Shown one piece after another: positions 51,140-63,761 of a stretch of DNA of 64,000 bases; within the stretch, counting starts at the first letter, position 1, and the number at the start of each line of letters is the position of its first letter. The DNA comes from Kiloniellaceae bacterium (GTDB taxonomy: Bacteria > Pseudomonadota > Alphaproteobacteria > Kiloniellales > J153): positions 26,845-90,844 of the forward strand of contig JAJFGL010000011.1 of NCBI GenBank assembly GCA_021776135.1, read 5' to 3'. Below the pieces are notes generated by a model. It ran no database searches and was not told where the DNA came from. It worked only from the letters and a program-made list of their open reading frames with translations. The position numbers and the translations under genes were made by a program.

Positions 51140-52816
51140 ATGACACCCAAGGGCGGCAAGCTGAAGGCCTCCGATTTATTCGTGAAGTGCCTGGAGGCCG
51201 AAGGCGTTACCCATATATTCGGGGTTCCGGGCGAGGAAAACGCCGATGTCATGATCTCGCTGCTCGACAGCAAGATCGAGTTCGTTTTGTGCCGCCACGA
51301 ACAGGCGGCGGCTTTCATGGCCGACGTTTACGGCCGGCTGACCGGCAAGGCGGGGGTCTGTCTCGGCACCCTTGGCCCGGGGGCGACCAACCTGGTGACC
51401 GGCGTGGCCGACGCCAACATGGACCGGGCGCCCCTGGTCTGCATCATCGGTCAGGCCAGCACGGACCGGCTTCATAAGGAAAGCCATCAGAACATGGACT
51501 CGATCGCCATGTACCGGCCGATCACCAAATGGGGCACGTCAATCATCAAAGCCGGCAACATTCCCGAGGTCGTGCGCAAGGCCTTTAAGGTGGCGGAGGC
51601 GGAAAAGCCCGGCGCTTGCCTGATCGAGCTGCCCGAGGATGTCGCCGAGGAACACCTCGACGCCGCGCCCATGACGGTGACCAAGACCCGCCGCGCCGCC
51701 GCCGACCACAAGGCCATCGCCCAGGCTGTCGAGCTGATCGCCGGAGCGAAAAACCCCATCATCCTGGCCGGCAACGGGGCGGTGCGTAAACGGGCGGCCA
51801 CCCAGTTGCGCCGCCTGGCCCGCAAGACCGGCATTGGCGTCGTGAACACCTTCATGGGCAAGGGCGCGCTCGCCATGTCCGACCGGCACTGTCTCTTTAC
51901 CATGGGCCTGCAGGGGCGCGACCACATCAACATGGCCATGGATAAGGCCGATCTGGTGATCGCCGTGGGCTACGATCTGGTGGAGTACAGCCCATCGTTC
52001 TGGAATCACGGCGACAAGAAGATCGTGCACATCGACTTCGAACCCGCCGAGATCGACGAGGATTATCACGTCACCGTCGATGTGGTCTCCGACGTCGCAG
52101 ATGCCCTATGGCAGATCAACGAGGAGATGAACAACCGTTACGAAGGCAAGCTGCCGCTTTTCGATATCGGGGACAGGGCCAAGCTGCGCCAGACGATACT
52201 CGACGATTTCGCTACCGAGAAGGACGATCGAAGCTTCCCGGTGAAGCCGCAGCGCGTGCTCTGGGATGTGCGCAAAGTCATGGGGCCGTCGGATATCCTG
52301 CTGTCGGACGTGGGCGCCCATAAGATGTGGATCGCCCGCTACTATCAATGCGAGGATCCCAACACCTGTTTGATCTCCAATGGCTTCTGCACCATGGGAT
52401 TCGCTCTGCCCGGCGCGATCGGGGCCAAGATCGCCCATCCCGACCGCAACGTCTTGGCGATCTGCGGCGATGCGGGCTTCCTGATGAATGTCCAGGATCT
52501 CGAGACCGCGGCGCGGCTGAAAATCCCGGTCACGATCATGGTCTGGTGCGACAACGAATACGGTCTGATCAAATGGAAGCAGCAGAACGCCTTCGACGGC
52601 CGGCATTCGGACCTGGCGTTCAACAACCCGGACTTCGACTACCTGGCCAAGGCCTTCGGCATCTGGGGCCGAACCCTCGACGGGCCGGATCAAATCGAGG
52701 ACGCACTGCAAGAGGCCTTCCGTCAGGATGGCCCGGCGCTCATCGCTGTGCCGGTTGACTACGGCGAGAACGTGAAATTATCCCAACGGCTCGGCAATCT
52801 CATCGCGCCGATTTAG
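51140..52816 (+). CDS. Acetolactate synthase large-subunit-like ThDP enzyme
   Basis: FGVPGEENADVMISL, RHEQAAAFMADVYGRLTGKAGVCLGTLGPGATN, ThDP motif GDAGFLMNVQDLETAARLKIPVTIMVWCDNEYG. Confidence 0.9.
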   Translation: MTPKGGKLKASDLFVKCLEAEGVTHIFGVPGEENADVMISLLDSKIEFVLCRHEQAAAFMADVYGRLTGKAGVCLGTLGPGATNLVTGVADANMDRAPLVCIIGQASTDRLHKESHQNMDSIAMYRPITKWGTSIIKAGNIPEVVRKAFKVAEAEKPGACLIELPEDVAEEHLDAAPMTVTKTRRAAADHKAIAQAVELIAGAKNPIILAGNGAVRKRAATQLRRLARKTGIGVVNTFMGKGALAMSDRHCLFTMGLQGRDHINMAMDKADLVIAVGYDLVEYSPSFWNHGDKKIVHIDFEPAEIDEDYHVTVDVVSDVADALWQINEEMNNRYEGKLPLFDIGDRAKLRQTILDDFATEKDDRSFPVKPQRVLWDVRKVMGPSDILLSDVGAHKMWIARYYQCEDPNTCLISNGFCTMGFALPGAIGAKIAHPDRNVLAICGDAGFLMNVQDLETAARLKIPVTIMVWCDNEYGLIKWKQQNAFDGRHSDLAFNNPDFDYLAKAFGIWGRTLDGPDQIEDALQEAFRQDGPALIAVPVDYGENVKLSQRLGNLIAPI

Positions 52817-52909: not shown

Positions 52910-55312
52910 ATGGGTAACGGAGCCGGAGGCGAGCACGTCACCGTCGCCATAGTGGGGTCCGGGCCCGGCGGTTTGAGCGCGGCCGGACGCGCCGCGCAAA
53001 GCGGCGTTTCCCATATCCTGCTGGAAAAGACCGATCACGCCTCCGACACCATCTTCAAGTACCAGAAGGGCAAGCTGGTCATGTCCGCGCCGGACGTCCT
53101 GCCCTTACGCAGCGACATGTCTTTCGCCTTGGGCATACGCGAGGACATCCTCGGCACCTGGGACCGGCAGATCGAGGACCTGGGCGTCAATATCCGTTAC
53201 AACGCCGAAGTCACCGGAATTGAGCGGCGCGAGGACGGATTCCACCTCGCCCTGAACGACGGCTCCGCCGTTAGCGCCGAGAAGGTCATCCTCGCCATAG
53301 GCTTGCAGGGTAATCTGCGCCAGCTTCAAGTGCCAGGGGCCGAACAGGCCAACCATGTCCAGTATCAGCTCGACGACCCGGATGAATACGAGGCCGAGAC
53401 CATCGTCGTGGTCGGGGCGGGCGACGCGGCGATCGAAAACGTGGTGGCGCTGGCCAAGCAGAACGACGCCATTATCGTCAACCGCAAGGACGAATTCGCC
53501 CGGGTCAAAGACGGCAACCGCTCACTCATACTGGATGCAATCGACAAGGGCGTCCTGTCGTGCATGTACAGTGCCGAAACTCTACGCCTGGATCCCGGTT
53601 CGATCACCGTCGAGACGCCCGATGGCGAGGTCACGGTCAAGTGCGACCGCGTCATTGCCCGCCTGGGCGCCATCGCGCCCCGCAAGTTCGTCGAATCATG
53701 CGGCATAGAATTCCCCTCCGCCGACCGGACCTCGCTGCCGGAGGTGAGCGCTACTTACGAGTCCAACGTACCCGGGCTTTACATCATCGGCGCCCTGGCC
53801 GGCTATCCCCTGATTAAGCAGGCCATGAATCAGGGCTACGAAGTGATCGAGTTCATTCTCGGCAACGACATCAAACCGGCCGACGAGCCGCTGCTAGAGG
53901 AACGCTTCGCCGTTTTGGGCGATGTCCCGGTCGAGCGGGTCTTCGACATGATTTTGAGCAACGTGCCGATTTTTTCGGACCTGCCGCACTTGGTGGTGCG
54001 CGAGATGATGCTCGAAGCGACGATCCATCGCCCGGCGCCCGGCGCGACGATCTTCGAGCGCGACGATTATTCGAACAGCTTCTATGCCATCGTGGAAGGC
54101 GAGGTGGCAATCGAAGTGGAGCCTGGAAACATCGCGCGGAACGTCACTCTCGCCCAGGGCGATTTCTTCGGTGAGATCGGTTTGATCGCCGGGCGGCGGC
54201 GCACGGCCACGGTGAAAGCGGGCGCCGGCTGCACCCTGCTCGAGGTTCCGCGGCGGACCATGATCAAGATGGTCTCTTCCTTCGACGAAGTGCGCCGGCG
54301 CTTCGACCTGGCCGCCATCGCACGGCAGATCAGCACCCACATCGCGCCGGGAATATCCGCCGAGGATTTGGCCGAGGTCGTGAAATCGGCCAGCGTCCGG
54401 ACCTTCAAGCGTGGCGAATTGCTGTTCGAGGAGGGGGGGGAGGCCAATGCGGTGCATTTGATTCGCCGCGGTTCGGTCATGGTCTCGCGCCGCATCGGCG
54501 GTAAGGAGACGGTCTTGTCCTACGTGCCCGTGGGGCACTACGTGGGCGAGATGGCCTTGCTTTCCGACGCGCCGCGCACGGCCAGCGTGCGCGCGGCGGT
54601 CGCGACCGAGACCGTGAGAATCGAAAACCAAGCCTTCAGCCGCTTGCTGGACCGGGCGCCGGACCTGCGCGCCCAGATCGAGGCGCAGTACCGCGAGCGC
54701 CTGGTCCAGAACGAACGCATGGAACAGGCGGGCGGCGCCGGCAACCTCATCCAGTTCCTGGTCGAGCAGGGCCTGGGGGAGGCCACGGACGTGCTACTGA
54801 TCGACGAGAGCCTGTGCACCCGCTGTGACAACTGCGAGACCGCTTGCGCGGAAACCCATGGCGGCGTTTCGCGCCTGAACCGGGAGGCCGGACCGACTTT
54901 CGCGAATGTTCATGTGCCGACCTCTTGCCGCCATTGCGAACACCCGCACTGCATGGCCGATTGTCCTCCCGACGCCATACACCGGGCGCCCAACGGCGAG
55001 GTCTTCATCGACGATTCCTGCATCGGGTGCGGTAATTGCGAGCGCAACTGTCCCTATGGGGTCATACAAATGGCGGCCATGCCGCCGCCGGGGCCCGGAC
55101 TTCTGTCTTGGCTGTTGTTCGGTTTCGGCGCCGGGCCCGGCGGGAATTCCGCCGCCAAGGGCGAGGGCGCTAAGCTCGCCGTCAAATGCGATATGTGCAA
55201 GGACATCGCCGGCGGCGCGGCCTGCGTGCGCGCCTGTCCGACAGGCGCCGCCATCCGCGTCCATCCGGAAGAGTTCATGTCGATCGCCAAGCTGGCCGAG
55301 AGGCGCGTGTGA
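52910..55312 (+). CDS. FAD/NAD(P) oxidoreductase - tandem cyclic-nucleotide-binding domains - 4Fe-4S ferredoxin fusion
   Basis: VAIVGSGPGGLSAAG and IVVVGAGDAAIENV; two CNB-like folds (ATIFERDDYSNSFYAIVEGEV...GDFFGEIGLIAGRRRTATV; ELLFEEGGEANAVHLIRRGSV...GHYVGEMALLSDAPRTASV); CTRCDNCETAC, CRHCEHPHCMADC, CIGCGNCERNC, CDMCKDIAGGAACVRAC. Confidence 0.9.
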   Translation: MGNGAGGEHVTVAIVGSGPGGLSAAGRAAQSGVSHILLEKTDHASDTIFKYQKGKLVMSAPDVLPLRSDMSFALGIREDILGTWDRQIEDLGVNIRYNAEVTGIERREDGFHLALNDGSAVSAEKVILAIGLQGNLRQLQVPGAEQANHVQYQLDDPDEYEAETIVVVGAGDAAIENVVALAKQNDAIIVNRKDEFARVKDGNRSLILDAIDKGVLSCMYSAETLRLDPGSITVETPDGEVTVKCDRVIARLGAIAPRKFVESCGIEFPSADRTSLPEVSATYESNVPGLYIIGALAGYPLIKQAMNQGYEVIEFILGNDIKPADEPLLEERFAVLGDVPVERVFDMILSNVPIFSDLPHLVVREMMLEATIHRPAPGATIFERDDYSNSFYAIVEGEVAIEVEPGNIARNVTLAQGDFFGEIGLIAGRRRTATVKAGAGCTLLEVPRRTMIKMVSSFDEVRRRFDLAAIARQISTHIAPGISAEDLAEVVKSASVRTFKRGELLFEEGGEANAVHLIRRGSVMVSRRIGGKETVLSYVPVGHYVGEMALLSDAPRTASVRAAVATETVRIENQAFSRLLDRAPDLRAQIEAQYRERLVQNERMEQAGGAGNLIQFLVEQGLGEATDVLLIDESLCTRCDNCETACAETHGGVSRLNREAGPTFANVHVPTSCRHCEHPHCMADCPPDAIHRAPNGEVFIDDSCIGCGNCERNCPYGVIQMAAMPPPGPGLLSWLLFGFGAGPGGNSAAKGEGAKLAVKCDMCKDIAGGAACVRACPTGAAIRVHPEEFMSIAKLAERRV

Positions 55313-56166
55313 TGGCGAACGGGCAGGGCGGCGCGATGCATGAATCGATTCTGATTTACCGCCGGTTCCGGTATTTGAAACTGGCGCTATTTGGGATAGC
55401 GGTGGCGGCGGTGGCCTATGGTTTTCATAGCCCCCTGGGAGAACCGAATGGCGGTACTTGGCTCGGCTACACCCTCGGGGGGGTCAGCGCCTTTCTGATT
55501 CTTTGGCTTATGTGGTTCGGTATCCGCAAGCGCCGTTACGGGCCGGGCAAGGTAAGGTTGGAATCCTGGCTTTCCGCCCATGTCTATCTGGGCTTGGCGC
55601 TGATTATCGTAGCTACCCTGCACACTGGCTTTCAGCTTGGGTACAACGTTCATAGCCTGGCCTACGTTCTGATGATGCTGGTAATCCTATCGGGCGCATT
55701 CGGCGTTTACGCCTACATTCGATATCCCAGGGCCATGACCGCGAACCGGCGCGGCGATTCTCTGCGCGAGATGATGCTGCAAATCGCCGATCTTGACCGG
55801 CAGTGCCGCGACATGGCCATGAACCTTGCCGACGAGATCAATAAGGCGGTGTTCGAGGCCGGCCGGAGCACGCGCATCGGCGGTGGGATCCTGCGCCAGC
55901 TTTCGGGCAGCGACCCGGCCTGCGCCTCGGCGGCGGCGCTGGAAAAGGTGCAGGGACTGGCGGCCGCCGCCGGCGGCGAAGACGCCGCGCGCTGCCGCCG
56001 CTTGGTCGCCTTGTTGAGCCGCAAGTGCGAACTGTTACGCCGGGCGAGAAAGGACGTGCAGTTGCAGACGCTCATGCAGTTTTGGCTATATCTTCATGTG
56101 CCTTTGTCGTTCGCGCTTCTCGCCGCGCTCAGCGCGCATGTCTTCGCCGTGTTCTACTACTGGTAG
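55312..56166 (+). CDS. b-type-cytochrome / ferric-reductase-like transmembrane protein
   Basis: TM segments with His candidates (SAHVYLGLALIIVATLHTGF, NVHSLAYVLMMLVILSG, LYLHVPLSFALLAALSAHVFAVFYYW); ATG overlaps the upstream stop. Confidence 0.7.
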   Translation: MANGQGGAMHESILIYRRFRYLKLALFGIAVAAVAYGFHSPLGEPNGGTWLGYTLGGVSAFLILWLMWFGIRKRRYGPGKVRLESWLSAHVYLGLALIIVATLHTGFQLGYNVHSLAYVLMMLVILSGAFGVYAYIRYPRAMTANRRGDSLREMMLQIADLDRQCRDMAMNLADEINKAVFEAGRSTRIGGGILRQLSGSDPACASAAALEKVQGLAAAAGGEDAARCRRLVALLSRKCELLRRARKDVQLQTLMQFWLYLHVPLSFALLAALSAHVFAVFYYW

Positions 56167-56176
56167 GGGCGCATCC

Positions 56177-57910
56177 TTGGCTGTCGAAGTCCTCATATCC
56201 TATCTGACCCGGAAGCGCCGGGGCGACGTGGCGCGGCGCGAGGAAAGGGCCGAAGGTGAGATCATACGCCTGGGCCGCGGCGCCGATTGCCAGATCTATC
56301 TGCCCGATCCCCGCGTGCCGCTGCTTCATTCGGAAATCCACGAACGCGATGGCCGCCTTCATATGGAGACCGTAGGGCCATCCCACGATCTCAAACTCAA
56401 CGGGGCCTCGGTGACCTCGGCCCGCCTCGATCCCGGAAGCAAGATCGGCCTCGGCCCCTACGAACTCGTCGCCGGCACGCAAGAAGATGGGACCGTGACC
56501 CTGTCGGTGGAGCTAATCCGTCCGCTCGGCGACGACTTCGCGGATCTCGACGCCCGTAGCCGGACCCGCGTGCAAAGGGTCGCGCTGAGCAAGCGGGGCT
56601 GGTCTTGGCTCATGTTTATAGTGGTCATGGCGGTGGCGCTCGCGGCCCCGCTTCTCGCGTCTTTGGATAGAGCGCAAGAAAAACCCCTGGCCCGGCCCGG
56701 CGGCGAGGCTGCTTTCTTGGCGAAACAGATCGGTTGGTCCGGGACCGCCGACAGCTTCTGGGAATCCGGCGCCATGTCCCGGCCGCACCAGAACTTCGCC
56801 GCCGATTGCGGGTCGTGTCACCAAAAGCCGTTTATTCAGGTGCGCGACGGCGCCTGTCTGACCTGCCATGCCAAGATCGAACACCATGCGGACGCGGTTT
56901 CCTTTCAGAGCGCCAGCTTCAAAGGCGAGGACTGCGCGTCTTGTCACAAGGAGCATACCGGGACCGCCCCCATGGTTATGGACTCTCAGGCGTTCTGCGT
57001 TTCCTGCCACGCCGGTCTGAGCCAGCGCGAGGCCAAGACAAACCTCCAGGACGCGAGCGATTTCGGCACCGGCCATCCCGAATTCCGGCCCAGCGTTGTC
57101 GTTAATGCCATGGGCCCGGTCTTGGCGCGTATGGAAATCGGGGGCGATCCGAAACCGGTGGAAAAATCCGGCCTCAAGTTCCCGCACGCGAAACACCTGG
57201 ACAAGCGCGGGGTGAAGCATCCCATTCAAGGGACTGTCCGCCTGGAATGCGCCGATTGCCACCGGGAGGAGCCCGGCGGACAAGGGATGCTGCCGATCGC
57301 CATGGAGGCTCATTGTCACGACTGTCACGGGCTGCAATTCGACCCTGCGGCGCCCACACGGCTGCTGCCCCACGGTAAACCGCGCGAGTCCGTGGAACAG
57401 ATGCGGGAGTTTTATTCCAAGTCCGCGCTCCATGGCGGTGTCGAAGACCCCAAGGCGCCGGCGAGCGTGCGTCTCCGGCGCCGTCCGGGTATCGGGCTTT
57501 CGCCGCAGGACAGCGCGGTTTCCTTGAACTGGGCGTTGCAAAAGGCGGCCGATGTCGCGACCGAGACCATCGGCAAGCGGGCTTGCGGAACCTGCCATGT
57601 CGTCACCCCGCCGGGGCCTGGCGATGCCGGCATCTGGGATGTGGTCAAACCCAGGCTGGCCGCGCGTTGGATGCCAAAAGGGCGCTTCGATCACGCCCAG
57701 CACAGGCAGACGGCCTGCGTCGAGTGCCACGACGCCGCCAAGTCCAAAACCGCGATGGACGTTCTCTTACCGGGGATCGAGACATGCCGGGACTGCCATG
57801 GCGGCGAGCAGGCGGTGGCCAAGGTGGCGACCACCTGCGTTTCGTGCCATGACTTTCATCGCCACGGGCTGCCGCCCCTGAAGGCCACCGCGAATAAGGC
57901 GTTGCCTTAG
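56177..57910 (+). CDS. FHA domain - TM - decaheme c-type cytochrome fusion (probable TTG start; alternative ATG 56096)
   Basis: FHA-like IIRLGRGADCQIYLPDPRVPLLHSEIHERDGRLHMETVG...LNGASVTSARLDPGSKIGLGPYELV; TM WSWLMFIVVMAVALAAPLLASL; ten CxxCH: CGSCH, CLTCH, CASCH, CVSCH, CADCH, CHDCH, CGTCH, CVECH, CRDCH, CVSCH. Confidence 0.9.
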   Translation: MAVEVLISYLTRKRRGDVARREERAEGEIIRLGRGADCQIYLPDPRVPLLHSEIHERDGRLHMETVGPSHDLKLNGASVTSARLDPGSKIGLGPYELVAGTQEDGTVTLSVELIRPLGDDFADLDARSRTRVQRVALSKRGWSWLMFIVVMAVALAAPLLASLDRAQEKPLARPGGEAAFLAKQIGWSGTADSFWESGAMSRPHQNFAADCGSCHQKPFIQVRDGACLTCHAKIEHHADAVSFQSASFKGEDCASCHKEHTGTAPMVMDSQAFCVSCHAGLSQREAKTNLQDASDFGTGHPEFRPSVVVNAMGPVLARMEIGGDPKPVEKSGLKFPHAKHLDKRGVKHPIQGTVRLECADCHREEPGGQGMLPIAMEAHCHDCHGLQFDPAAPTRLLPHGKPRESVEQMREFYSKSALHGGVEDPKAPASVRLRRRPGIGLSPQDSAVSLNWALQKAADVATETIGKRACGTCHVVTPPGPGDAGIWDVVKPRLAARWMPKGRFDHAQHRQTACVECHDAAKSKTAMDVLLPGIETCRDCHGGEQAVAKVATTCVSCHDFHRHGLPPLKATANKALP

Positions 57911-57979: not shown

Positions 57980-59917
57980 ATGGATCGCTGGGGGGTAAGG
58001 ATGGCGCGTTCCGATCTGACCGCCACGCCAGGGAATTCGGCGAAAACATTCGCGCGCCGGTTTTGCCGGGTTGCTTATCGGATAGCGCCGCTGATCGCGG
58101 TCCTGGCCGTTTTCGCGGCCCCACCGGCGGGTGCCGGCGAAGGCTCGTTCAAATTGGAGCCGCCCCTCGAGCCTGGCAAGTTGGAAACCGGCCGTTCCGA
58201 TAGCTATCCCGCCGGTCTCATGGCGGCCGCGGGCGAGTCTGGCGCCCGGCGCCGCCCCGGCGAGCCGCCGCCGGTCCCGGAAGAGGAATTTCCAACCATC
58301 GACCCCTCGGCTGTGGCGCCGCCGCGCGCCAACATGCCGCGCGAGAGCATCCCGGTGCCGGATCGTTGGCGCCTGATCGATTCATTCGGGGTCACGGAAA
58401 AGTGGTGGGATCCTTATAACCAGAATACCTTGAAGGCAGACCGGCCGTTGTTCGACGACTGGTTCATCAATATCGCGCTCATATCAGATACCATTTACGA
58501 ACCGCGCCGCTTGCCTACGCCGGTCGGCATACAGACAACCGACCGGGCCGGCTCCGTCGATGTCTTTGGCGACGTCAATCAGTTCCTGTTCAACCAGAAC
58601 CTGATTACCTCGGTTTCCTTGATCAAGGGCGACACCGTTTACCGGCCGCCGGATATCGAACTGCGGCTGACCCCAGTCTTCAACTTCAACTATACGGAAG
58701 TCGAAGAAAGGCGGGTTCTGAACATCGATCCGAACCGGGGCACGACCCGCACCGACGGGCATGTCGCCTTGCAGGAAGCCTTCCTGGACTATCATATTCG
58801 CAATGTTTCGGACCGCTTCGACTTCGATTCCATCCGCGTCGGCATACAACCTATCCAGGCCGACTTTCGCGGTTTCCTGTTTCAGGATCAGCAACTCGGC
58901 GTGCGCCTGTTCGGAACCCGCGCCAACAACATCTTTCAATATAACCTGGCTTATTTCCGGCGCATCGAGAAGGACACCAACTCCGGCTTGAACGACTTAA
59001 ACCACCAACTGCGCGAGGACGATGTTTATCTGGCCAACCTTTTTTGGCAGGACTTTCCGGTTCGCGGTTTCGTCTCCCAGGTCACCGCGGTTCACAACCG
59101 GAACCGGGAGAACGACGAGTTTTTCTTCAACAACAACGGTTTCCTGGAACGGCCGGCCTCGCTCGGGGACGAACGGCCGCGCAAGTACCATGTGACCTAT
59201 CTGGGCTATAATGGCGACGGGCATTTCGGCAGGCTGAACCTTAGCGGTTCCTTCTATTACGCCTTCGGTAAAGACAGTCCCAATCAGTTCCGGGGCGACG
59301 GAAAAACCTCCGACATCAAAGCTTTCTTCGCCGCCTTGGAACCCTCGATTGATTTTTCCTGGTTTCGCCTGCGGGGGTCGTTGCTTTACGCCAGCGGCGA
59401 TTCGAACCCCTTCGATAACACCGAGGGCGGTTTCGACGCGATCTTCGAGAACCCGCAATTCGCAGGCGCCGATACCAGCTTCTTTATCCGCCAGGCGGTG
59501 CCCTTGATCGGCGGCGGCGGCGTCGCGCTTTCGGGCCGCAACGCCATACTGCCCTCCCTGCGCTCGTCGAAGGAACAAGGCCAGTCGAACTTCAACAATC
59601 CGGGACTTCGCTTGATCGGCGCCGGCGCCGATATCGACGTGACGCCGGAGTTGCGCCTTTCGGCCAACGCGAATTACCTGGAGTTTGACGATACGTCCTC
59701 GCTGGAATTCCTTCGCAATCAAGGCAGTATCGACCGCTCGATCGGCTGGGACCTTTCCGCCGCGGTCATATATCGTCCGTTCTTCACCCAGAACGTTATC
59801 CTGCGCGCTTCGGGCGCGGTCCTGGTTCCAGGCGATGGTTTCGATGAGTTATTCCGGACCGGCCGGGATCAAGACCTGTTTTATTCGGTCTTGGTAAACC
59901 TGATCATGACCTTCTGA
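57980..59917 (+). CDS. Putative outer-membrane beta-barrel protein of the electron-transfer locus
   Basis: Signal peptide (IAPLIAVLAVFAAPPAGAGE); alternating amphipathic strands rich in Asn/Tyr/Phe; terminal Phe (VLVNLIMTF). Confidence 0.75.
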   Translation: MDRWGVRMARSDLTATPGNSAKTFARRFCRVAYRIAPLIAVLAVFAAPPAGAGEGSFKLEPPLEPGKLETGRSDSYPAGLMAAAGESGARRRPGEPPPVPEEEFPTIDPSAVAPPRANMPRESIPVPDRWRLIDSFGVTEKWWDPYNQNTLKADRPLFDDWFINIALISDTIYEPRRLPTPVGIQTTDRAGSVDVFGDVNQFLFNQNLITSVSLIKGDTVYRPPDIELRLTPVFNFNYTEVEERRVLNIDPNRGTTRTDGHVALQEAFLDYHIRNVSDRFDFDSIRVGIQPIQADFRGFLFQDQQLGVRLFGTRANNIFQYNLAYFRRIEKDTNSGLNDLNHQLREDDVYLANLFWQDFPVRGFVSQVTAVHNRNRENDEFFFNNNGFLERPASLGDERPRKYHVTYLGYNGDGHFGRLNLSGSFYYAFGKDSPNQFRGDGKTSDIKAFFAALEPSIDFSWFRLRGSLLYASGDSNPFDNTEGGFDAIFENPQFAGADTSFFIRQAVPLIGGGGVALSGRNAILPSLRSSKEQGQSNFNNPGLRLIGAGADIDVTPELRLSANANYLEFDDTSSLEFLRNQGSIDRSIGWDLSAAVIYRPFFTQNVILRASGAVLVPGDGFDELFRTGRDQDLFYSVLVNLIMTF

Positions 59918-59924
59918 GCACGGC

Positions 59925-62900
59925 GTGAAACAAGCATCCTATATCCTGGCGGCGGTTTTATTTTTGGCGCTGGCCACGGTAAATGCTTGGGCCGCCAGCG
60001 GCGAATCGCCGCGCGGCATAACCTATGGCAAGACGCCGCCGGCGCCGGCCTTCCAGTCGCTCATGCAGAGTTACGCCAAGAGCCGCGGTTGCCAATCCTG
60101 TCATACCAAGACCGACCAGGCCTCGATGCACGTCACCCCGGCGGTGGTGCTGGGCTGCGCCGATTGCCACGGCGGCGACGCGGCGGTGACCCGGCCGGAG
60201 GGCAGCGAACCGGAGGATACGGCCTACCGGGCGGCGCTCGACCGAGCCCACGTGCAACCGCGTTATCCCAAAACCTGGAACTATCCGTCGAGCGCCAATC
60301 CGAGGAACAGCTATACGCTCTTGAACCGGGAGGCGGCCGAGTACGTCCGTTTCGTCAATCCGAGCGATTACCGGGTGGCGCGGGAGGCTTGCGGCGCCTG
60401 TCACTTGCCGATCATTCAAGCCGCCGAGCGCAGCCTCATGTCGACCAGCGCCATGCTTTGGGGCGGAGCCGCGTACAACAACGGCATCCTGCCGTTCAAG
60501 AACTACAACGTCGGCGAAGCCTATACCCGGGACGGCGAAGCGGCGACGCTGATGAGCCCGCTGCCCCCCAACGAGAAAATGAAAAAACGCGGCATCCTGC
60601 CGTATCTGTTTCCTCTACCGGCCTGGGAGGTCATTCCGGCTGGCGATATCTTCCGGGTATTCGAACGCGGCGGCCGCAACATCGCCAACCTGTTTCCCGA
60701 AATCGGCCTGCCCAACCTTACCGGCAGCATTCAACGGCTCGAGGAGCCGGGACGTCCGGACCTGCGCCAATCGAACCGGGGCCCCGGTACCGGGCTCAGG
60801 ATCTCGGTTCCGGTCATCAACATCACCAAGACCCGCCTGAACGATCCGCACATGTGGTTCCTGGGCACCAACGATCAACCGGGCGATTTTCGTTCCTCGG
60901 GTTGCGCGGGCTGTCATGTGGTCTATGCCAACGACCGGGATCCCCGCCATTCCGGGCCCTATGCCCGCTTCGGCCATGTCGGAGAGAGTCAGACCAGCGA
61001 TCCCACCATACCCAAGGGCGAACAGGGTCATCCGCTGAAGCATAAATTTTCGCGGGCTATCCCGACCAGCCAGTGCATGAGCTGCCACATGCACCAGCCG
61101 AACTCCTTCGTGAATACCTTCCTAGGCTATACCATGTGGGACTACGAATCCGACGCCCCCACCATGTGGCCGGAAGAACAGCGCTACCCGACTTCGGCGG
61201 AGATACGCGCCATCAACGAACGCAACCCGGAAGAAGCGGCGATACGAGGAAAGTGGTCGGATGTGGACTTCCTAAGGGGGGTATCGGAACTCAATCCCAA
61301 GCTCAAGAACACCCAGTTCGCCGATTACCACGGTCACGGCTGGAACTTCCGGGCCGTCTTCAAGAAAGACCGCAAGGGCGATCTTCTCGACGCCGAGGGC
61401 AAGGTGATCGGCCCGGACGATCCCGACAAGTTCAAGAAGGCCGTGCACATGTCGTCCATTCACCTGGATGTCGGGATGAATTGCGTCGATTGTCATTTCT
61501 CTCAAGACTCCCACGGCAACGGTTGGATCCACGGCGAGGTGGCGAACGCCATTGAGATTCGCTGCGCGGATTGTCACGGCACGGCGGAATCCTATCCCAG
61601 CCTTGTCACCTCGGGTCCGGCCGCGAAACCCGGCGGTTTCGATCTATCCTTGCTGCGCAACGAGGACGGCCGCAGGCGTTTTGTCTGGCGCGGCCCTGAT
61701 TGCGGTAAGCCGGCGGGCGGAACCCGCGACTGCAAGCTGTTCCAGCGGCCTATCCTATGGAAAAAGGGCGACACGCCGCCGGAGGATATCGCCAAGGCGA
61801 TCGGCCCGAACCTGGAATGGGAACTTTCCCTGGTTAAGGATACGGTGAACCCGGCCCATGCCGACTACAACCAGAAGGCGGCGCGGGCCAAGCTCATGGC
61901 CATGGGCACGGGCATGGGCTGGGGGCCGGGGGTGGCCGAAACCGGGCGCGCGCACCGCGACGAACGCATGGAATGCTATTCGTGCCATCTGTCCTGGACC
62001 ACCTCCTGCGCCGGCTGTCACTTGCCGATCCAGGCCAACTGGAAGACCGAGCGGAAACATTACGAGGGCGGCGAATCGCGCAACTACGCCACCTATAATC
62101 CCCAGGTTGTCCGCGACCAGATGTTCCAGCTTGGCATCCATTCCACGGTCAAGGGCAACACCATCGCGCCGATCCGCTCGTCCTCCGCGTTGATCCTGTC
62201 CTCCACCAACATCAACCGCGAAAAGATTTACATACAGCAACCGCCGATCGCGGCCTCCGGCTATTCCAGTCAGGCCTTCGCGCCCCACTTCCCGCACACG
62301 GTGCGCAAGACGGAAACCAAGCAGTGCACCGATTGCCACTTGTCCGAGGCCAAAGACAACAACGCCATCATGGCGCAGCTTCTGTTGCTCGGGACCAATT
62401 TCGTTAATTTCGTGGGCTACAACGCCTGGGTCGGCGCCAGCGGCGGCTTCGAAGCGGTGCGGGTCACGGAGTGGGACGAGCCCCAGGCGGTGATCGGCAG
62501 TTACCTGCACAAATACGCCTATCCCGATTGGTACCGGGACCACCTCGGCAAAGAAAAAAAGTTGAGTGAAAGTTATGCCCAATCCGGCGGCCGGGCGGGC
62601 TGTCTGCAGCTTCGCGGCGAGTACCTATACGTTGCCCAGGGCGCGGACGGCATGGAGGCCTACGATGTCGCCTCGATCGCCAACAAGGGCTTTTCCGACC
62701 GCATCATATCGGCGCCTTTCAGTCCGCTCGGGCACGACACGCGGGTCGGATCGGCGAACGCAACCTGCGTGGCCTTGGCGACCACTCAGCCGGTACATCC
62801 GGACCGCATGGACAAAGACGCGGCGACCGAGACTCTCATGCTGGAAACCAACCAGGAGCAGCCCTTCCATCCAATTTACGATTATGCCTTCATCACCGAT

Positions 62901-63761
62901 GCGCAAGAGGGCCTGATCCTGACCGACATCAACACCATGGCCGACGGCGAACCGCGTAATAATTTCCTGGAGCGCACCCTGACTTGGAACGAGGGGGGAA
63001 TCTTGAAGGGCGCCCGCCACATAACCATCGCCGGCCATTATCTCTACATCGCGGCGGATGCCGGCATCGTCGTTTTGAACGTGGACCGGCCCCTGCGGCC
63101 GAAGCTGGTTAGCGTACTTCCCTTCGCGGACGCGCGCGCCAGTGCGATCCAGTTCCGCTACCTCTTCGTGACCGACGCTTTGGGTCTGCATGTTCTCGAC
63201 GCCACCGATCCGGCGCGTCCGCGTAAGGTGGAGGGCGCCTTCGTGCCCTTGGCGGACGCGCGGCGTATTTACCTGGCGCGGACCTTTGCCTATGTGGCCG
63301 CCAAAAAAGAGGGGCTGGTCATTGTCGACGTGGAGCGCCCGGAAACGCCACGTGTGTATATGAAATTCACCGCCGGCGGGCGGATCGCGGATGCCGAGGA
63401 CGTGGTGGTCGGCTCCACCAATGCCTCGCTCATGGCCTATGTGGCCGACGGCCGTGGCGGCCTCAAGGTGGTGCAGCTCACCTCACCGGAGCGGCAGCCG
63501 CGTTTTTACGGCTTCAGCCCGGACCCCAAACCGGAGCTTATCGCCTGGAAGCCGACTAAGTGGCCGGCGCTTTCCTTGTCCAAGGGTCTCGACCGTGACC
63601 GGGCGGTGGACGAGACCGGGGGCCAGATGGCGGTCTTCGGCCGCCTCGGCAGCCGCCCCTTCACGCGCCAGGAGATGCAAAAGCTCTATTTGGACAGGAC
63701 CGGCGCCCCCTGGTTCGTATCCGATACCGGCAAACCGGCGGATTTCGTACCGGCGCCCTGA
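59925..63761 (+). CDS. Secreted decaheme c-type cytochrome fused to C-terminal LVIVD-type beta-propeller
   Basis: Signal peptide; ten CxxCH: CQSCH, CADCH, CGACH, CAGCH, CMSCH, CVDCH, CADCH, CYSCH, CAGCH, CTDCH; C-terminal repeats EYLYVAQGADGMEAYDV, HYLYIAADAGIVVLNVDRP, RYLFVTDALGLHVLDATDP, TFAYVAAKKEGLVIVDVERP, LMAYVADGRGGLKVVQLTSP. Confidence 0.9.
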   Translation: MKQASYILAAVLFLALATVNAWAASGESPRGITYGKTPPAPAFQSLMQSYAKSRGCQSCHTKTDQASMHVTPAVVLGCADCHGGDAAVTRPEGSEPEDTAYRAALDRAHVQPRYPKTWNYPSSANPRNSYTLLNREAAEYVRFVNPSDYRVAREACGACHLPIIQAAERSLMSTSAMLWGGAAYNNGILPFKNYNVGEAYTRDGEAATLMSPLPPNEKMKKRGILPYLFPLPAWEVIPAGDIFRVFERGGRNIANLFPEIGLPNLTGSIQRLEEPGRPDLRQSNRGPGTGLRISVPVINITKTRLNDPHMWFLGTNDQPGDFRSSGCAGCHVVYANDRDPRHSGPYARFGHVGESQTSDPTIPKGEQGHPLKHKFSRAIPTSQCMSCHMHQPNSFVNTFLGYTMWDYESDAPTMWPEEQRYPTSAEIRAINERNPEEAAIRGKWSDVDFLRGVSELNPKLKNTQFADYHGHGWNFRAVFKKDRKGDLLDAEGKVIGPDDPDKFKKAVHMSSIHLDVGMNCVDCHFSQDSHGNGWIHGEVANAIEIRCADCHGTAESYPSLVTSGPAAKPGGFDLSLLRNEDGRRRFVWRGPDCGKPAGGTRDCKLFQRPILWKKGDTPPEDIAKAIGPNLEWELSLVKDTVNPAHADYNQKAARAKLMAMGTGMGWGPGVAETGRAHRDERMECYSCHLSWTTSCAGCHLPIQANWKTERKHYEGGESRNYATYNPQVVRDQMFQLGIHSTVKGNTIAPIRSSSALILSSTNINREKIYIQQPPIAASGYSSQAFAPHFPHTVRKTETKQCTDCHLSEAKDNNAIMAQLLLLGTNFVNFVGYNAWVGASGGFEAVRVTEWDEPQAVIGSYLHKYAYPDWYRDHLGKEKKLSESYAQSGGRAGCLQLRGEYLYVAQGADGMEAYDVASIANKGFSDRIISAPFSPLGHDTRVGSANATCVALATTQPVHPDRMDKDAATETLMLETNQEQPFHPIYDYAFITDAQEGLILTDINTMADGEPRNNFLERTLTWNEGGILKGARHITIAGHYLYIAADAGIVVLNVDRPLRPKLVSVLPFADARASAIQFRYLFVTDALGLHVLDATDPARPRKVEGAFVPLADARRIYLARTFAYVAAKKEGLVIVDVERPETPRVYMKFTAGGRIADAEDVVVGSTNASLMAYVADGRGGLKVVQLTSPERQPRFYGFSPDPKPELIAWKPTKWPALSLSKGLDRDRAVDETGGQMAVFGRLGSRPFTRQEMQKLYLDRTGAPWFVSDTGKPADFVPAP

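Follow-up and report, generated by a model that had tools for sequence, protein, structure and literature searches.

Known electron conduits across the bacterial envelope have been studied mainly in metal-respiring bacteria, and they draw on the quinone pool. MtrCAB, PioAB, and MtoAB combine an outer-membrane barrel with decahaem cytochromes. The Uet cluster of Tenderiales and Gallionella groups a barrel, multihaem cytochromes, and propeller-type (NHL) proteins, and it encodes UetJ with 11-12 haems, three trihaem cytochromes, a PPIase, and separate NHL proteins (PMC10734462). In Desulfovibrio ferrophilus, a propeller and a multihaem cytochrome are encoded together as separate proteins, and no barrel conduit is reported (PMC8322314, PMC9769857). 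The window analysed here, a 64,000-nucleotide stretch from a Kiloniellaceae bacterium (contig JAJFGL010000011.1), encodes a decahaem cytochrome and an LVIVD-type propeller as one fused protein. Its gene set is apparently unnamed and is found in hundreds of mostly proteobacterial genomes. No description of the cluster or of the fused decahaem-LVIVD family was found in the open-access PMC literature, an absence that carries little weight, and a 2026 Leptothrix paper mentions a decahaem cytochrome, unnamed and with no porin nearby, that may or may not be a relative (PMC13386937). We give about an even chance to the reading that the cluster exports electrons from NAD(P)H over both membranes under cNMP/FHA gating, ending in the decahaem-propeller protein docked at the barrel.

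The decahaem-propeller protein (1278 aa) is encoded at 59925-63761 on the plus strand, as are the partner genes given below, and its ORF starts with GTG. Its N-terminus, read from the sequence by eye, has a Sec-type signal peptide (59925-59996; LATVNAWA before and ASGE after the AWA/AS site) and no lipobox. The original prediction placed ten CxxCH motifs in roughly the first 820 residues, and exactly ten are present, at residues 56, 78, 156, 327, 384, 520, 547, 684, 695, and 801; from first to last they span residues 56-805 (60090-62339), referred to here as the haem half. Shuffled sequences of the same composition contained a mean of 0.012 CxxCH and a maximum of one (2000 shuffles). In 83 near-full-length homologues, each of the 20 Cys that bind haem and each of the ten motif His shows 100% conservation. 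Another 13 His in the haem half are at least 94% conserved, a number that suffices for bis-His ligation of ten haems. The haem count is 10 in 83 of 84 propeller proteins.

The C-terminal part of the protein belongs to the LVIVD-repeat proteins, both by profile match (PF08309, E 5.5e-14, 51.7 bits against a cutoff of 20.2) and by predicted fold. With a 42-sequence alignment, AlphaFold2 modelled residues ~830-1237 (62412-63635) as a beta-propeller with pLDDT mostly 85-96. The haem half had pLDDT mostly below 70, as expected because it was modelled without haems. Repeats resembling [YF]x[YF]V[AT] start at five places, residues 900, 987, 1039, 1079, and 1121, in agreement with the at least five [Y/F]xYVA-type repeats reported earlier. 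Foldseek matches of this domain are themselves propellers, including AztD, archaeal S-layer YVTN proteins, and surface B12-binding lipoproteins of the BtuG type, and the likeness is at fold level only (~10% identity). The proposed C-terminal propeller on a decahaem cytochrome, for which AlphaFold and Foldseek had been named as checks, is borne out by these results. C893 and C948 of the propeller are invariant in the homologue alignment and possibly form a disulphide. A search for other MHC-LVIVD fusions had also been advised. The 83 near-full-length homologues aligned here keep the fusion with propeller coverage of at least 98%; a lone chimera or assembly artefact is thereby ruled out.

Relatives of the decahaem-propeller protein are encoded in 308 genome stretches from a scan of 85,462 species genomes. 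The best 80 of these 308 have 61-72% identity, are nearly all full length, and come from Alpha-, Beta-, and Gammaproteobacteria; two of the 80 are labelled Marinimicrobia and one Klebsiella, probably through binning or labelling errors. The record titled Klebsiella pneumoniae MAG (L075) branches with Betaproteobacteria and Silanimonas, and it is probably a mislabelled or misbinned contig. A tblastn search against plasmids found relatives on 12 plasmids of Sphingobium (about 0.9-1.3 Mb) and on one of Sphingopyxis, with 57-63% identity over 97-98% of the protein. Cultured genera with relatives include Sphingobium, Duganella, Limnobacter, Haliea, and Dokdonella, some of them carrying the gene on megaplasmids, and the hosts named by genus are mostly aerobes. 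The cytochrome was present in 29 of 387 alphaproteobacterial genomes in a class sample, 12 of 399 genomes in a phylum sample, and none of eight other genomes from the source's own family. The tree mostly sorts by class (label changes: two for alpha, five for gamma, and four for beta) and alone demands little transfer, but the patchy distribution and plasmid location suggest that some horizontal transfer has occurred.

Gene content was compared in loci from the best 80 of the 308 stretches, and more distant variants may differ from the counts given here. The conserved set in the closest loci comprises seven genes encoding an oxidoreductase, a membrane protein, an anchored cytochrome, an HbpS-repeat protein, a barrel, the decahaem-propeller protein, and a c554-like cytochrome. 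Genes for the HbpS-repeat protein, barrel, and decahaem-propeller protein are present in 44/44 loci with full flanks, the oxidoreductase gene in 43, and the membrane protein and anchored cytochrome genes in 42; the c554-like gene is absent from the examined flanks in 13 of the 44. In almost every homologous locus, the decahaem-propeller gene comes immediately after that of the outer-membrane-type barrel. Betaproteobacteria have the oxidoreductase gene behind the c554-like gene; sphingomonads encode the inner-membrane half of the cluster on the other strand. On two Sphingobium plasmids of about 1 Mb (L004 and L006), the cluster adjoins genes for two-partner secretion (FhaC/ShlB-type), metallophosphoesterases, and a 2OG-Fe(II) oxygenase.

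The locus in the window holds the oxidoreductase, membrane protein, anchored cytochrome, barrel, and decahaem-propeller genes, and its contig (C3) ends 239 bases further on. The HbpS-repeat and c554-like genes of the source genome lie together at the end of a second contig, C62. The locus was probably split by assembly, because joining C3 to C62 would give the gene order of alphaproteobacterial relatives, in which the c554-like gene comes after the propeller gene on the opposite strand. No end overlap joining the two contigs was found, and the HbpS gene is not at its usual site between the anchored cytochrome and the barrel. At the C62 end (L090:9067-13644), a gene for a 373-aa protein without a Pfam family is located between the HbpS-repeat and c554-like genes. 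Adjoining the HbpS gene is a gene for a 1909-aa secreted repeat protein (L090:2400-8129, minus strand) with PKD-like, beta-helix, and LamG-like repeats recognised by eye. In the window, an acetolactate-synthase-like TPP enzyme (51140-52816; PRK08322, 752 bits, over cutoff) is encoded immediately upstream of the oxidoreductase. Several Lysobacterales loci also have a related gene within 10 kb of the cluster, which may be chance.

The inner end of the proposed chain is encoded by three genes. The product of 52910-55312 is a cytoplasmic oxidoreductase of the FAD/NAD(P) type that carries two cNMP-binding domains and sites for four [4Fe-4S] clusters, and all 16 Cys for these clusters are invariant among homologues. 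Its FAD/NAD(P) module is YpdA/thioredoxin-reductase-like and contains no redox-active CxxC, and an NR-x-x-EF-x-R motif hints at NADPH. The membrane protein (55336-56166, likely start 55336) matched no family above cutoff, and its H-X13-H pairs are invariant in two helices across an alignment of 25 homologues. Such pairs are the mark of dihaem b carriers, and the protein is probably one of these. The anchored cytochrome (56183-57910) has an FHA domain (PF00498), one transmembrane segment, and a periplasmic part with ten CxxCH and cytochrome c7/c3 matches; the alignment favours a start at 56183 and shows the ORF start at 56096 to be too early. Profile searches matched it to MtrA (6r2q_A, E 8e-7) and to a Geobacter dodecahaem cytochrome (3ov0, E 1.5e-13), and the haem count is 10 in 63 of 67 anchored cytochromes.

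From these parts we infer a path in which NAD(P)H would reduce the FAD, and the four [4Fe-4S] clusters would pass electrons to the dihaem b membrane protein. This protein would bring them through the inner membrane, and the anchored decahaem cytochrome would then take them over. The periplasm would be crossed from there to the decahaem-propeller protein, perhaps with help from the c554-like cytochrome, whose relatives have four CxxCH and one CX4CH in 56 of 58 cases. Electrons moving outward from NAD(P)H by way of two b haems run downhill, with both potential and membrane voltage in their favour. The same chain run inward, with the surface decahaem protein fed by a donor outside the cell (reduced metals, minerals, or an electrode) and the inner part feeding metabolism, would have to reduce NAD(P)+ through b haems and Fe-S clusters, which is uphill and also against the membrane voltage. 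Porin-cytochrome systems of iron oxidisers do run inward (MtoAB, PMC12016527), and two homologous loci (L026 and L040) come from MAGs named Biocath, but the cluster has no quinone or bc1 link and many of its hosts are heterotrophs, so inward flow appears very unlikely. Against the reading of a dedicated export chain, the Sphingopyxis plasmid pMC4 carries the outer half of the cluster, and no oxidoreductase was found on that plasmid.

Electron flow along the export chain may be gated by the paired cNMP domains of the oxidoreductase and by the FHA domain that the anchored cytochrome carries in many lineages. The FHA domain is absent from this cytochrome in several Burkholderiales loci (including L032, L052, L058, and L083), which indicates that FHA control would be lineage-specific. 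CHASE2 adenylate/guanylate cyclase genes are found near the cluster in seven loci (including L032:17657-19918), and FHA and PP2C genes in 9-10 loci. These neighbours in subsets of loci fit cNMP- and FHA-based regulation, and the recurrent FHA/PP2C genes suggest control of the cluster by phospho-signalling. Genes for an FHA protein and a PP2C phosphatase recur downstream of the c554-like gene in gammaproteobacterial loci (L040-L045, L069, L077, L081, and L086). The source genome encodes 11 class III cyclase domains, which is merely permissive for cNMP regulation.

The outer-membrane-type barrel (57980-59917) has 18 strands in its AlphaFold2 model (pLDDT 75), joined by short turns at one end and by long loops at the opposite end, and its best Foldseek match is AlgE (E 2.9e-17). 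Alginate_exp was weakly matched by 5 of 37 barrel homologues (best E 1.9e-5). PDB sequence searches with the barrel, the propeller cytochrome, and the membrane protein returned nothing relevant. The decahaem-propeller protein would be held at this AlgE-type barrel, with either the barrel or the HbpS-repeat protein as the docking site of the propeller. The adjacency of the barrel and cytochrome genes in nearly all loci fits docking on the barrel. The MtrB barrel has 26 strands; the smaller size of the present one makes electron passage through the outer membrane hard to explain and so counts against the export chain. The cytochrome could instead be a periplasmic electron store or hub, with the barrel a separate channel or exporter. 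The missing lipobox, the resemblance of the barrel to an exporter, and the higher mean conservation of its periplasmic turns than of its outer loops (0.81 vs 0.67) agree with that arrangement. However, conservation is high (0.82, with 28 invariant positions) in barrel loop 13-14, a 71-residue segment predicted to be either external or in the lumen. This is unusual for a porin, and neither this loop nor the near-constant pairing of the barrel and cytochrome genes is what a periplasmic hub leads one to expect. We consider a periplasmic hub quite improbable.

Extracellular components of Geobacter conduits are variable (PMC6148476), and the multihaem cytochromes of Geobacter evolve fast (PMC12977616). 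The decahaem-propeller protein shows the opposite pattern. Its mean pairwise identity is 65%, compared to 34-54% for the other cluster proteins, and the propeller is nearly as conserved as the haem half (0.72 vs 0.75). Distance correlations between the cluster proteins are 0.78-0.87, to which common descent contributes. The near-invariance of the propeller cytochrome argues for a specific partner or ligand over loose mineral contact. The original prediction had offered mineral or partner binding as alternatives; the mineral half fits poorly with these values, and, as judged from sequence conservation, the protein more likely binds a specific partner or ligand. It is plausible that the protein is the terminal cytochrome, as had been suggested, and its haems would then hand electrons to a defined surface partner or ligand. 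The surface candidate is the most conserved part of the cluster and therefore should have a definable partner.

A defined ligand would also suit reductive nutrient uptake, in which the chain would reduce a cofactor or a ferric, haem, or corrinoid ligand on the HbpS-repeat protein or the propeller and so enable its uptake. The HbpS-repeat protein has repeated PF03928 domains, a haem-binding family, with a lipobox in many relatives, and its presence in every full locus and the strict conservation of the cytochrome are in keeping with such a role. The BtuG proteins that the propeller resembles cap a barrel, but that likeness is the distant fold-level one described above, and the flanks hold no recurrent gene for a TonB-dependent receptor or an uptake ATPase. 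We regard nutrient uptake as unlikely and keep to electron export as the working model. A broader claim is more tentative and, in our view, somewhat less probable than not: that the cluster represents a separate class of trans-envelope chain, found widely among proteobacteria, aerobes included, which would draw on NAD(P)H instead of quinol, be under cNMP/FHA gating, and consist of an AlgE-type barrel, a fused decahaem-propeller protein, and an HbpS-repeat protein that together serve one specific surface partner. If the chain works as proposed, such bacteria have a regulated outlet for electrons from NAD(P)H to the surface, and the cultured hosts allow direct testing.

As in MtrCAB, PioAB, and MtoAB, a barrel and decahaem cytochromes are encoded together, and the profile of the anchored cytochrome matches MtrA. 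However, the barrel here is 18-stranded and AlgE-like, the surface candidate is a propeller-bearing non-lipoprotein, and the chain would be fed from NAD(P)H, not quinol. The barrel had no NCBIfam or PDB sequence match to MtrB/PioB, and no MtrB was among its 50 best Foldseek folds. Despite its partial MtrA match, the anchored cytochrome scored 18.8 bits against the DmsE-family model (cutoff 192), which had no over-cutoff match anywhere in the source genome. The decahaem-propeller protein scored 17.2 bits against the MtrC/OmcA model PF22113 (cutoff 30) and, as noted, lacks a lipobox. The Uet cluster is similar in composition and is set apart by its own description (PMC10734462), since the proteins here have 10 haems and a fused LVIVD propeller; no PPIase or trihaem gene recurs in the cluster flanks. 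Among the Geobacter Ext conduits and the ExtM/ExtN proteins of the selenite/tellurite operon, ExtM is matched weakly and partially by the haem half (83 bits, against an NCBIfam equivalog cutoff of 800), as are ExtN/ExtO, and the barrel matched none of the Ext families. The propeller and multihaem cytochrome of D. ferrophilus are two proteins, whereas here they are one. In NOX/FRE proteins, electrons pass from NAD(P)H to FAD, then through two b haems across the membrane to an acceptor on the far side. The present cluster resembles these by function, not by sequence membership, and differs in its separate subunits, four extra [4Fe-4S] clusters, cNMP domains, and c-haem chain over the periplasm and outer membrane. 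Membership in any named conduit family is not justified, and by analogy the cluster would work as a porin-cytochrome conduit does, coupled to an inner-membrane route of the NOX/FRE kind.
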